Below are positions 55,321-59,523 of a DNA stretch of 64,000 bases, piece by piece. A program made the position numbers and the translations under genes. The DNA is from Anaerocolumna cellulosilytica (GTDB lineage: Bacteria > Bacillota > Clostridia > Lachnospirales > Lachnospiraceae), in the NCBI RefSeq assembly GCF_014218335.1, contig NZ_AP023367.1:3963501-4027500 (forward strand), written 5' to 3'. Numbering within the stretch: position 1 is the first letter of the stretch; each line of letters begins with the position of its first letter. The notes under the pieces were generated by a model. The model was not told where the DNA came from. It saw nothing but the letters and a program-made list of their open reading frames with translations, and did no database searches.

Positions 55321-55348
55321 ACCCTATCCCTACACTAATCATATATTA
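55321..55348 (+). promoter_or_regulatory. Possible sigma-K promoter of the split ABC operon
   Basis: AC (55321-55322), a 17-bp spacer, and CATATATTA (55340-55348) match the sigma-K pattern AC-N17-CATANNNTA exactly. The ATG is 27 bp downstream with AGGAGGA between. The pattern has low information in AT-rich DNA, so this is suggestive only. Confidence 0.35.
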
Positions 55349-55374: not shown

Positions 55375-56007
55375 ATGGGAGAACTTTTAAGAATCGACAA
55401 CGTAGGCTACACCTACCATAGTCTGGAAGGAGAAACCCCCGCACTGCAAAATATCTCTTTTCATGTAAATGATTGTGAATTTCTTGCTATTGTCGGCCCC
55501 AGTGGATGCGGTAAATCAACACTTCTTTCATTGATTGCCGGATTAATCGTCCCTGATACTGGTAATATATATATAAATAATAAAGATGTTAAAGCTTCCG
55601 GCAAAAATATAGGATATATGCTTCAAAAGGATCACTTGTTAGAATGGCGATCCACTCTTCGTAATCTAACCTTAGGTCTGGAAATACAACACAAACTTGC
55701 AGACAGCAGCTACATTTTAATCAATGATATGCTTGCTACCTACGGATTAATAACTTTTAAAAATGCAAGACCCTCCGAGCTTTCCGGCGGAATGCGTCAA
55801 AGAGCCGCTTTAATTAGAACCTTATTATTAGAGCCCGATATCCTGCTTTTAGACGAACCTTTTTCTGCTTTGGATTACCAAACCCGTATTGAGGTATCTG
55901 ATGATATATGGGGAATCATACGAAAAGAGAAAAAGACAGCTATCTTAATTACCCACGACATATCAGAAGCTATCGATACTAAAATACTATGCGAAATACT
56001 CCCCTAG
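55375..56007 (+). CDS. ABC importer ATP-binding protein, 5' part (interrupted gene)
   Basis: This SsuB/TauB/ThiZ-like ATPase has Walker A IVGPSGCGKSTLLSLIAG, Q-loop GYMLQKDHLLEWRSTLRNLT, signature LSGGMRQRAALIRTLL, Walker B ILLLDEPFSALD and H-loop ILITHDISEA. True homology ends at residue 198. The last 12 residues and stop (56007) come from an inserted element, giving a 210-residue truncated protein. Joining at GAAGC (55966-55970) to 58530 restores a 257-residue ATPase, the normal length. The interrupted form keeps all nucleotide-binding motifs but lacks the C-terminal 60 residues. Confidence 0.9.
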   Translation: MGELLRIDNVGYTYHSLEGETPALQNISFHVNDCEFLAIVGPSGCGKSTLLSLIAGLIVPDTGNIYINNKDVKASGKNIGYMLQKDHLLEWRSTLRNLTLGLEIQHKLADSSYILINDMLATYGLITFKNARPSELSGGMRQRAALIRTLLLEPDILLLDEPFSALDYQTRIEVSDDIWGIIRKEKKTAILITHDISEAIDTKILCEILP

Positions 56008-56077
56008 AATTGACTGTTCTAATCACCTTTTTATTATTTTGTCATATAATGTAAAAAAAGAAAGGAGTATGCAGAAT

Positions 56078-56326
56078 ATGCCTGAATACAATAAAAAGGT
56101 TAATGATCAATCCTATTGCCCATCCTGTAATAATTGGCCTGGTTATCCCAGGTCTGATAAATGGAGACCTGGATACGGCCCCGGGTATGGTTCCGGCCCA
56201 TGGGGTTCCGGCTACGGTCCCGGTAAGAGACCTTGGGATTCTGGCTCATGGGGTCCTGGCTATGGTGGTCCTCATAAGCGCCCATGGGGCTCCGGTCCGT
56301 GGGGTCCTGGTTCTGGAAGGTGGTAA
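56078..56326 (+). CDS. Gly/Pro/Trp/Tyr-rich small protein
   Basis: The protein has 82 residues from the ATG at 56078, which is well spaced from AAAGGAG; an ATG at 56069 is also in frame. After a short polar start with SYCPSCNN, residues 25-82 are repeats of the form GPGYGSGPWGSGYGPG and RPWGSGPWGPG. Low-complexity Gly/Tyr/Pro proteins are common in spore coats and exosporia, but no family can be named. It is the first gene in the intervening element. Confidence 0.65.
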   Translation: MPEYNKKVNDQSYCPSCNNWPGYPRSDKWRPGYGPGYGSGPWGSGYGPGKRPWDSGSWGPGYGGPHKRPWGSGPWGPGSGRW

Positions 56327-56353
56327 TCTAAAAGTAGTTTCCTAATAAAAATA

Positions 56354-56403
56354 GTTTAGAGGTTAACTGGCTGCTATGTAACTCGACTTGTTAACCCCTA
56401 AAC
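56354..56403 (-). terminator. Terminator between the two small genes of the element
   Basis: GTTTAGAGGTTAAC pairs with GTTAACCCCTAAAC (one mismatch) around a 22-nt loop. On the minus strand TATTTTTATT follows, so it chiefly ends the gene at 56418. Confidence 0.65.
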
Positions 56404-56417
56404 AACATTAGTTCTAT

Positions 56418-56624
56418 TTAGTTTTCAGATAAATACTTCTTTTTCTCCAAATGTTCTTGAAGCATTTCATATACTTTACTGCGTATGTGCTCTGGTTGCT
56501 TCATTAACTGGCTGAGCATTAAATCACTTACTATGTATGTGGCTTCTTCTTTCATTTTATTCATATTATTTATCTTTTCTTTTTCCTGCTCCGTTGAATC
56601 TTCATTCATAACCTGAATCACCAT
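56418..56624 (-). CDS. Small helical protein of unknown function
   Basis: This 68-residue protein, predicted all-helical, has a charged start (EDSTEQEKEKINNMNKMKEE) and an amphipathic second half (VSDLMLSQLMKQPEHIRSKV). A GCAGGA site precedes the ATG, and TATAAT lies about 30 bp upstream on the minus strand. I do not recognise it. It is the only gene in the element that runs against the recombinase, and could be a small regulator or directionality factor; this is a guess. Confidence 0.5.
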   Translation of the reverse strand: MVIQVMNEDSTEQEKEKINNMNKMKEEATYIVSDLMLSQLMKQPEHIRSKVYEMLQEHLEKKKYLSEN

Positions 56625-56783
56625 AGGCGAACGTCCTGCTCTGTTTTATATTATAATAGTATTTATTCCATAAGCCTGTACTTGTTTCATGTCTATGACA
56701 CTGTTATGGCAAATTAAGTATGAATCATATCTCTTCACGATATACTGTATAAGAGATAAGGTTGAAAGAAAATATAAATGTAT

Positions 56784-56869
56784 AGAAAGGATGCCACTCA
56801 GCGATTCTTTCGACCTGTTTTATTTGTGGCAGTATCGCAGGCAAACTTCGATATGTGATGGGTGTGAAT
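56784..56869 (+). ncRNA. Candidate structured leader RNA, copy B (before the recombinase)
   Basis: AGAAAGGAT (56784) starts the same arrangement as copy A: GAAAG pairs with CTTTC (56807-56811), and loop GCCAC (56793-56797) pairs with GTGGC (56826-56830). A following hairpin has stem TATCG/CGATA where copy A has ACACAT/ATGTGT, so stems are kept while sequence differs. The ATG follows 38 nt after the motif, against 41 in copy A. An ATCTCTT/AAGAGAT hairpin lies further upstream (56734-56763). Confidence 0.4.
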
Positions 56870-58531
56870 ATGAATATAGCAATCTACAGCCGGAAATCAA
56901 AGTATTCAGAAAAAGGTGATTCTATTGATAATCAAATACAATACTGTAAGGATTATGTAAAAATGCACTTAAAGCAAATTACCGAACCAAATTTTATAAT
57001 ATATGAAGACGAGGGCTTTTCTGCTGCCACTACCATACGACCCAGTTACCAAAAACTATTAGAAGATATAAAAGTCAAAAAGATTCAGGTTTTAATATGC
57101 TATCGCCTAGACCGTATTAACCGTAACGTATCTGATTTTTCAAAAACCTTAGAACTGTTAGAAGAATGCAACATATCTTTCATTTCAGCTACTGAAAATT
57201 TTGATACTTCGACTCCTATGGGCAAAGCCATGATATACATAGCTTCTGTTTTTGCTCAATTAGAAAGAGAAACCACCGCCGAAAGAGTAAGAGACAACAT
57301 GCTTGCCCTATCAAGAACCGGCAGGTGGTTAGGAGGTCTCTCACCGCTTGGATATCAATCCGAATCCATTTTATATATGGACGAATCTTTAAAAGAACGC
57401 CAGCTTTATCAATTGGTTCCAATTGAAAAGGAGCTTAATAAAGTGCTTCTAATTTTTTTAAAATATAAAGAGACACAGAGCCTTTCCCAATTAGAGACTT
57501 ATTGTCTAACCAATCACATTAAAACGCAGAAAAATTGTGACTTTACAAAAAACTCCTTATCTCTCTTATTACAAAATCCTACCTATTGCATTGCAGACAA
57601 AGAGGCTTATGACTATTTTTCAGGTCTTAACTGTATTATTCCCTTCTCTATAAGCGATTTTAACGGACAAAATGGAATTTTATGCTACAACCGTACAAAG
57701 CATCTGGCTGGAAACCGTCAAAAAAAACGACCTGCTAAGGAATGGATTGTTGCCATTGGGAAGCACCGGGGTATTATAACCGGTAAGGACTTTGCCTTCA
57801 CTCAAAATTTATTAAAACAAAATAGGACAAAAGGATCGCCTCGTAAAGATACTTCACAAATTGCTTTGTTTTCTGGATTAATCACATGCAGCTGCTGCGG
57901 CTCCAGGCTAAGGATTAAAAATATCCGACGAACTAAAGATAAAGTTACTTATTCTTATGTCTGTGAGATGAAAGTTCTATCAAAAGGCGCGCGGTGCCAG
58001 AACAAAAATCTACCCGGTGCTTCTTTTGATGAAAAACTTCTTACATTAATAAGAAATATCCTTCTGTATCTTAATATAACAGATACCGCCATTGATTTAT
58101 TACTGGAAAAAGAATATCTTATTAAGAGTGAAGCTGAAACTGCTGTTTTTCAAATCAACACCTTAAATCAGGAACTGACAGCTATTAATGATGAAATCTC
58201 TAATCTTCTTAAACAACTAAGTCAAAACAGTTCTCCCCTACTGGCAAAATACATCCTTCCACAGTTAGATAAGCTGGATGGGAAAAAAAAGCAATCCGAG
58301 GAGCGATTACATAACCTGACAATAGGTATTACAAAAGCTGATACACAATCTCCGGATGTACTGAAAACCTATACTACGTTAACTTCTGTGGAAACGCTGT
58401 TAGCTTGTCATGATGTCAAAAATCTTCGAGCGTTGGCTGAACTTTTTATTAAATCCATATATTGGGATGGTCAATCAGCAAGCATTAAACTTAATCTCCC
58501 CTCCTATGAGCATTTCTGTATTGATAGCTGA
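56870..58531 (+). CDS. Large serine recombinase (site-specific integrase/excisionase)
   Basis: This 553-residue protein has an N-terminal resolvase domain with the catalytic Ser in IAIYSRKSKYSEKGDSIDNQ, VLICYRLDRINRNVSDFSKT and FAQLERETTAERVRDNMLAL; a recombinase domain (about 165-290); a zinc ribbon (TCSCCGSRLRI and later YVCEMKV with RCQN); and a coiled-coil region (about 425-480). It is the enzyme expected to move or excise the surrounding element. The ATG at 56870 matches the usual start; its stop codon TGA includes the central GA of the right attachment site, so the gene is complete within the element. Confidence 0.93.
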   Translation: MNIAIYSRKSKYSEKGDSIDNQIQYCKDYVKMHLKQITEPNFIIYEDEGFSAATTIRPSYQKLLEDIKVKKIQVLICYRLDRINRNVSDFSKTLELLEECNISFISATENFDTSTPMGKAMIYIASVFAQLERETTAERVRDNMLALSRTGRWLGGLSPLGYQSESILYMDESLKERQLYQLVPIEKELNKVLLIFLKYKETQSLSQLETYCLTNHIKTQKNCDFTKNSLSLLLQNPTYCIADKEAYDYFSGLNCIIPFSISDFNGQNGILCYNRTKHLAGNRQKKRPAKEWIVAIGKHRGIITGKDFAFTQNLLKQNRTKGSPRKDTSQIALFSGLITCSCCGSRLRIKNIRRTKDKVTYSYVCEMKVLSKGARCQNKNLPGASFDEKLLTLIRNILLYLNITDTAIDLLLEKEYLIKSEAETAVFQINTLNQELTAINDEISNLLKQLSQNSSPLLAKYILPQLDKLDGKKKQSEERLHNLTIGITKADTQSPDVLKTYTTLTSVETLLACHDVKNLRALAELFIKSIYWDGQSASIKLNLPSYEHFCIDS

Positions 58532-58712
58532 AGCAGTTTCCATGGCTGACCGTATTATAGTTCTTTCAAACCGTCCCGGAACTGTAAAAAGTATTATTGA
58601 TGTCAATTTATCTGTTGAAGATAAAACTCCCTTTAAAGCCAGAAGCGCTCCTGAATTTAAGGATTATTTTAATCTAATCTGGAAGGAGTTAAGTCATTAT
58701 GAAAACAACTAA
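58530..58712 (+). pseudogene. ABC importer ATP-binding protein, 3' part (displaced C-terminus)
   Basis: The frame reads EAVSMADRIIVLSNRPGTVK and ends LIWKELSHYENN, the C-terminal segment of SsuB/TauB-type ATPases after the H-loop. It lacks its own start in the right place and is the continuation of the gene at 55375. Fusing residue 197 of that gene to GAA at 58530 keeps frame and gives 257 residues. It overlaps the permease start by 14 bp, as expected for an intact operon. Confidence 0.88.
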
Positions 58713-59523
58713 AAAAAAATTACTCAGCCAGACTCAGTTATCTATTTCTCCTTCTCATGAAGCTTACATCAGAGAACATCTGAAAAATATACAAAGAATC
58801 CGATTTTTTCAAGTTATTATTATCGTTGGTTTCATTGCCCTCTGGGAAGTATCAACCCGTGTGGGGCTGGTTGATTCTTTTATCTTCAGCAGTCCCTCAC
58901 GGGTGAGCAGAACTTTTTTTGAAATGGCAAGAGACGGCAGTATCTTCTATCACATTGGTGTTACCTTGCTGGAAACTTTCCTTAGTTTTACTCTGGTTAT
59001 CGTATTAGGTATTGCTCTTGCAATTCTTCTTTGGTGGAATCATAATCTAGCAAAAATCTTAGAACCCTACCTAGTTGTATTAAACAGTCTTCCCAAATCA
59101 GCTCTTGCCCCGGTTTTTATCGTGTGGCTAGGTAACAACATTAAGACAATAATAGTTGCAGCTGTCTCTGTTGCAGTATTTAGTACAGTTATAACTTTAT
59201 ATACAGCTTTTATAGGTGTTGAAGAAGATAAAGTCAAATTAATCCGTACCTTAGGAGGCAGTAAAAAAGACATCCTGCTAAAGGTGGTAATCCCCAGTAA
59301 TATACCTTCTATGATAAGTATCATGAAAGTAAATATCGGTTTGTCCCTGGTTGGTGTTATTATAGGAGAATTTTTAGCCGCAAAAGCAGGACTTGGTTAT
59401 CTCATTATCTATGGAAGCCAGGTTTTTAAACTAGATTGGGTTATTATGTCCATAGTTATCCTGTGTATATTAGCTACTGCCCTCTACCAGCTTTTATCAT
59501 ATTTTGAAAAAAGATATAAGTAA
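58699..59523 (+). CDS. ABC importer permease (SsuC/TauC/ThiX-like)
   Basis: This 274-residue permease has about six helices, including FFQVIIIVGFIALWEVSTRV and FTLVIVLGIALAILLWW, and the EAA-type loop EEDKVKLIRTLGGSKKDILL followed by KVVIPSNIPSMISIMKVNIG. The family imports sulfonates, nitrate, taurine or thiamine precursors; no substrate-binding protein gene is adjacent, so the substrate stays open. GGAAGGAG precedes the ATG. Its ATPase partner is the gene split by the intervening element. Confidence 0.88.
   Translation: MKTTKKKLLSQTQLSISPSHEAYIREHLKNIQRIRFFQVIIIVGFIALWEVSTRVGLVDSFIFSSPSRVSRTFFEMARDGSIFYHIGVTLLETFLSFTLVIVLGIALAILLWWNHNLAKILEPYLVVLNSLPKSALAPVFIVWLGNNIKTIIVAAVSVAVFSTVITLYTAFIGVEEDKVKLIRTLGGSKKDILLKVVIPSNIPSMISIMKVNIGLSLVGVIIGEFLAAKAGLGYLIIYGSQVFKLDWVIMSIVILCILATALYQLLSYFEKRYK

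Follow-up and report, generated by a model that had tools for sequence, protein, structure and literature searches.

The window analysed here, a stretch of 64,000 nucleotides from Anaerocolumna cellulosilytica (NZ_AP023367.1; all coordinates are positions in this window), contains a gene for an ATP-binding cassette (ABC) ATPase that is broken in two by an element carrying a gene for a large serine recombinase (LSR). Is such a gene lost, or is it rebuilt by excision of the element, and in which cells? Very probably this is a minimal, three-gene skin-like element, which the LSR, together with a small acidic directionality factor, would excise in the mother cell. Both excision and its mother-cell specificity we infer from sequence comparison. 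The features of the locus are the following.

55321..55348, plus strand: candidate SigK-type promoter preceding the ATPase gene, AC-N17-CATATATTA, conserved in 14/14 loci
55375..55967, plus strand: left part of the SsuB/YtlC-type ABC ATPase gene, through the likely crossover dinucleotide (PF00005, 4.8e-32)
55966..55979, no strand: left end, core GA and inverted-repeat arm AGCTATCGATAC
55966..58529, no strand: intervening element, 2,564 bp separating the two GA cores
56069..56326, plus strand: gene of a small Gly/Pro/Trp/Tyr-rich protein, 85 aa, the first gene past the left end
56418..56624, minus strand: gene of a small acidic protein, 68 aa, pI 5.33, candidate recombination directionality factor
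56870..58531, plus strand: LSR gene (Resolvase 4.7e-34, Recombinase 8.4e-12, Zn ribbon 6.8e-10)
58518..58531, no strand: right end, inverted-repeat arm GTATTGATAGCT and core GA
58530..58712, plus strand: right part of the ATPase gene, which purifying selection maintains in the split species, its junction identical in intact species
58699..59523, plus strand: YtlD-type permease gene, unsplit in the window (PF00528, 1.6e-20)

The left part of the ATPase gene is broken after THDIS, at the core GA 55966-55967, and the right part resumes at the core GA 58530-58531. The original prediction had described two halves of one SsuB-type ATPase around a 2,564-bp element, and the coordinates and the distance were re-derived as such. 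Joining in silico at GAAGC, which is common to both sides, opens a reading frame of 257 aa with THDISEAVSMADR at the joint. The end of this frame is overlapped by the start of the permease gene (58699) by 14 bases, as predicted. The uninterrupted THDISEAVSMADR is present in all five intact congeners and equals the reconstituted joint. The split of the ATPase gene by the 2,564-bp element, with exact in-frame reconstitution, is confirmed. The split gene is the sole copy found in the genome, the next best match being 39% identical.

The ends of the element form the predicted dyad around a non-palindromic GA. Its 12-bp outer arms are complementary as an inverted repeat at 11/12 positions in the window and at 70/96 positions over eight species (as good in 0/5000 arm shuffles). 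The host arms match at 40/96 positions over eight species, and 0.0004 of shuffles are as good. In two species (G012 and G014) only the GA is identical across the junction, which makes these two bases, and not all of GAAGC, the likely crossover. The earlier placement of the crossover at GAAGC stands as regards in-frame joining, and its extent probably shrinks to two bases. The right core GA lies inside the LSR stop codon TGA (58529-58531).

A five-base repeat alone carries little weight; the weight comes from recurrence of the same split within the genus. Comparison of the locus in sister genomes, proposed together with the original prediction, covered 15 Anaerocolumna genomes. The ATPase gene is split at the same codon in nine and whole in five, and the remaining genome (G001, 63% complete) yielded only paralogue-level ATPase matches. 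This rules out a chance 5-bp repeat. An assembly artefact is unlikely, as several of the split genomes are single contigs. The eight genus elements that could be measured are 2500-2719 bp long. Relative to the window, the split genomes have 51-59% identity in the LSR and 82-91% in the left ATPase part. On a tree built from the ATPase left half, the permease part and DegV, with partial branch support and several rows lacking some of the parts, the split and intact states need two changes, and the intact G007 is nested among split species. On the LSR tree the nine genus LSRs group together with full support, and the same close species are paired inside. In the draft genome G011 the two ATPase parts are on two contigs. 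One ends with ...ATATCAGA and another begins with GATGCAATG..., the break lying exactly at the core. A population in which some copies had lost the element might produce such a break, the one indirect hint of excision. Past the core, the right ATPase half of the same genome is short by about 23 residues with the frame kept (L058, about 2540-2670), by deletion or as an assembly effect.

The element contains only three recognisable genes: the LSR, the small acidic open reading frame (ORF) and a WGPG-rich ORF. The recombinase gene that had been placed inside the element does encode LSR domains. Its start is ATG 56870 as in the congeners, with GTG 56855 as an alternative. The Ser of YSRKS, which we take to be the catalytic serine, is invariant across 10 aligned proteins. 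The LSR has XisF as its best NCBIfam match, scoring 114 bits where the cut-off is 375, and shares just 23-28% identity with other LSRs encoded in this genome. A minus-strand counterpart of the 68-aa acidic protein, picked by motif, is present in 9/9 genus elements. A profile seeded from 12 such proteins (seven from genus elements and five from other LSR loci) found 45 ORFs in 43/86 LSR loci, nine of which hold seeds; 36/45 are at most 3 kb from the LSR, a figure inflated by seeding from near-LSR ORFs. This protein would be the directionality factor. The WGPG-rich ORF lies just inside the left end in 9/9 genus elements by eye, and is apparently frame-shifted in G006. Its product has a coat-like composition, also by eye. 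A search for it in the 15 genomes returned only the copy in the window, and this search is insensitive, as it missed known copies in other elements. A prophage was rejected: no phage structural or replication genes were recognised in the element, PHROGs not having been searched. Of the 50,697 phage records compared, 104 have a match to the LSR; only in Terrisporobacter phage TPELB_ph1 does a match span 80% or more of the LSR, with 37% identity over 98%.

The link to sporulation comes from the target gene. The pattern AC-N16/17-CATANNNTA, which we take to be the SigK consensus, starts 53-54 nt upstream of the start codon in 14/14 congeneric loci, both split and intact; random 80-nt stretches contain it in 282/28,000 cases. 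The promoter would be of the SigK type. A SigE promoter is possible, since CATATTAT has been published as a mother-cell -10 box and ATA-N16-CATATATA as a SigE promoter (PMC3789822). In 147 genomes of the order that are at least 90% complete, orthologues of the ATPase were called at E <=1e-59, a cut set at a score gap. They occur in 77/117 genomes with SigE/SigK-type genes and in 0/30 without them (Fisher p 3e-12, relatedness ignored). In Bacillus subtilis ytlA, ytlC and ytlD belong to the SigK regulon (PMC3416734), and ytlC of Clostridioides difficile (CD1927) is SigK-dependent (PMC3789822); the function of YtlCDA is described as unknown (PMC11466899). Of the genes of a YtlACD importer, the window has those of the ATPase and the permease, with the SigK-type promoter. 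A ytlA-type substrate-binding protein gene was seen in three relatives, upstream of the split ATPase gene by about 4.7 kb (L142), 1.3 kb (L166) and 2.3 kb (L170). The split gene is probably ytlC of the SigK-regulated YtlACD transporter. The element thus sits inside the coding sequence of a gene that has a SigK-type promoter and is confined to SigE/SigK-positive genomes, its orthology to ytlC being probable.

The following sequence of events can be proposed. In growing cells the ATPase gene would be split and silent. In the mother cell SigK would transcribe the YtlACD-type importer operon, and the LSR, steered by the small acidic protein, would recombine the two ends at GA. This would release a 2.56-kb circle and bring back the full ATPase reading frame, so that the transporter would be made in the mother cell only. 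The forespore and the spore would retain the element, which would be kept and passed on vertically because the mother cell dies. Speculatively, a SigK transcript made before excision would enter the WGPG-rich gene, and the small protein may be made first.

One possibility is that excision does restore the gene and has no link to sporulation, the element leaving and reintegrating at random or under stress as in active lysogeny. Occasional precise loss is indeed suggested by the intact genes of 5/15 congeners and by the position of G007 among split species; the contig break of G011 fits a mixed population, and no common sporulation promoter was seen at the small acidic gene. However, the target has a SigK-type promoter, so that restoration would matter in the mother cell only, and relatives of the LSR accompany other mother-cell genes. 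We consider uncoupled excision rather improbable.

Another possibility is that a selfish insertion killed the gene, leaving two halves that are now decaying. The physical break in the gene fits this, and no second copy was found in the genome. Two further features may be signs of decay, the in-frame gap in the G011 right half and an altered frame on the right side of the G006 permease. The NG86 estimates, made on eight split and five intact species (G011 was excluded owing to this gap), are against it. The split species have mean pN/pS of 0.087/0.724 in the left half and 0.149/0.614 in the right half, with synonymous saturation in 18/28 and 7/28 pairs, respectively: synonymous sites are near saturation and protein changes are rare on both sides of the element. 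In the left half the median ratio for unsaturated split pairs is 0.037, and 0.028 for intact species. In the close split pairs dN/dS is 0.011-0.067. For G008/G006 it is 0.012/0.452 = 0.027 in the left half and 0.023/0.345 = 0.067 in the right half; for G012/G014 it is 0.002/0.188 = 0.011 and 0.008/0.471 = 0.017. The LSR has 0.169 and 0.096 in the same two pairs. Both ATPase halves and the LSR are under purifying selection, and the promoter is retained in 14/14 loci. A half that could never be rejoined should look otherwise. Constraint on both halves rules out a pseudogene, and decay after a selfish insertion is hardly credible. Separate translation of the halves and their assembly with no DNA rearrangement would explain the conservation of both, but is just as hard to credit, as the left ORF continues into variable tails, the right half by eye has no consistently placed start or ribosome site except the internal Met of VSMADR, and the permease of three species is cut too, within its membrane domain.

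Several observations weigh against mother-cell excision of such an element. Over all pairs the right half is less constrained (median 0.133, maximum 0.238 for unsaturated split pairs), near the 0.116 of intact species. The loose SigK pattern occurs nine times in the window at 5.65 expected; this is near chance and weak alone, so that only its conservation counts. The 68-aa acidic protein matched no Pfam or NCBIfam family. An alignment of the regions upstream of its gene has no common box and no consistent SigE/SigK promoter. Support for the name ytlC comes from published annotation, from the neighbouring genes and from co-occurrence, rather than from the B. subtilis protein itself. In a paper on the mother-cell programme of B. 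subtilis, ytlA-D go unmentioned in the main text (PMC517825). Among the LSR relatives considered below, 24/80 have no assigned target, six of these lying near a whole FAD oxidoreductase gene, and the FAD oxidoreductase, to which 13 were assigned, is not a demonstrated sporulation gene. A skin-like element rebuilding a transporter ATPase, as originally predicted, is nevertheless the best reading, given the split in 9/15 genus genomes, the selection on the gene, its SigK-type promoter and the relatives of the LSR.

The kind of element is already known (skin, gin, vfbin, yin, SPbeta), and the target gene is new. Excision in a terminally differentiated cell also rebuilds genes in the heterocyst elements of cyanobacteria (nifD, fdxN/XisF), in a different phylum and cell type. 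Experimental precedents exist in skin of C. difficile (PMC5025042) and in gin (PMC5595907). The skin element targets the mother-cell gene sigK by means of an LSR and a small acidic factor, the latter being CD1234, a protein of 72 aa and pI 5.5 that is controlled by SigE and SpoIIID and directs the LSR (PMC5025042). The present element has an LSR, a candidate acidic factor and a probable mother-cell target as well. However, skin has 19 genes, whereas here there are three genes, the target is probably ytlC and excision is predicted from sequence (PMC5025042). The gin element in gerE of Bacillus cereus is likewise non-phage, with a serine recombinase and a directionality factor in a sporulation gene, but has 31 genes and three serine recombinases, compared with one recombinase in 2.56 kb here (PMC5595907). 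Recombinase-bearing elements in sporulation genes of Bacillota also include yin (yabG of Clostridium botulinum) and vfbin (spoVFB); these are prophage-like, and yin is described as unique to one strain, whereas the element described here occurs across a genus (PMC10747680). SPbeta, whose excision from spsM of B. subtilis during sporulation rebuilds a spore-envelope gene, is a full active prophage, unlike this element (PMC4191935). In the open-access literature searched by topic and by ytl genes, no title among those listed describes an element in ytlC, ytlD or ytlA; the three-gene size, the genus-wide spread and the doubly interrupted operon described below were likewise not found there. Few genes are believed to be activated by excision of DNA during sporulation; the element would add to them a transporter whose function is unknown, and points to YtlACD as a conserved late-sporulation function. 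It also supplies new sets of LSRs, candidate directionality factors and att sites. Why elements gather in mother-cell genes becomes testable, excision there being costless to the lineage.

Beyond Anaerocolumna, a second genus of the order (g93) has the same ATPase site split in all six genomes listed with the orthologue, and both halves are present. These elements are about 4.0-13.5 kb long, with the LSR at the right end. By eye all six (L165-L170) have a minus-strand ORF resembling signal peptidase I near the left end, and 5/6 have a near-identical small helix-turn-helix-like ORF. In genome G126 the ATPase match ends at residue 202, and the fetched stretch contains neither the right half nor an LSR.

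A scan of the named genomes gave 309 relatives of the LSR, of which the best 80 were considered. A truncated gene accompanies 56/80; it was assigned if it adjoined the LSR or lay within the same fetched stretch, and many are some kb away. The targets are ytlC (17), sigK (17, L094 being provisional), the FAD oxidoreductase (13), yunB (3), yabG (2), dpaB (2) and a ytlA-type gene (2). Both halves of ytlC were fetched in nine of the 17 loci, including L098, where the left piece ends at residue 178. The references for yunB, yabG, dpaB and ytlA were pieces of loci within the set, and NCBIfam identified the first three. On a tree of 90 LSR proteins, made by a quick method with 44/87 branches starred, the target labels cluster, with 18 changes against 52.3 in shuffles (0/200 as low). 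On this tree no fewer than five changes are required for the 27 LSRs located in ytlC, and the Anaerocolumna branch stands apart from g93 and the other ytlC branches, so that the same ytlC site has probably been reached by LSRs more than once.

In G006, G008 and G010 a second element, 2,141-3,621 bp long, also splits the permease gene, at VSV|AVFGS (at about 8576-10716 in L053 and at the corresponding place in L051 and L052). This element has a CGGTAG repeat, and its serine recombinase is a different one, with 25-28% identity to the LSR. Joining across it gives VSVAVFGS, as in intact relatives. The altered frame on the right side of the G006 permease may reflect decay or an error in sequencing. 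As there are two elements in one operon, two separate excisions would both be needed for a working transporter. On balance, we lean towards a guild of serine recombinase elements in mother-cell genes of Clostridia, which would mostly stay faithful to one target as their hosts diverge. YtlACD would be a repeated target, the ATPase, permease and binding-protein genes each being split in some lineage, and some Anaerocolumna would have two elements with different recombinases in one operon.

Some loci differ in arrangement. The FAD-dependent oxidoreductase gene is truncated beside LSRs at two sites (L087, L090, L109, L110, L115, L116, L118, L122, L125, L126, L130, L140, L143), and in several loci it stands beside a gene resembling sulfide or dihydroorotate dehydrogenase genes. 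In L061 (3116-4939) a ytlC-type gene breaks off within its Walker A motif next to an LSR gene in convergent orientation, so that genes of this type have a second site of insertion. In Sporanaerobium hydrogeniformans (L060, 6521-8760, the same genome as L132) the left half ends at the usual site and the LSR is reversed; no ATPase right half was found in this stretch. In Petroclostridium sp. X23 (G061:C1, the genome of L093) the left half is at 4.36 Mb on the minus strand, and the right half with the LSR is at 2.1 Mb, more than 2 Mb away. Finally, a congener with a whole ATPase gene (G002:C62:161476-170956) has sigK in two pieces with an LSR between them.

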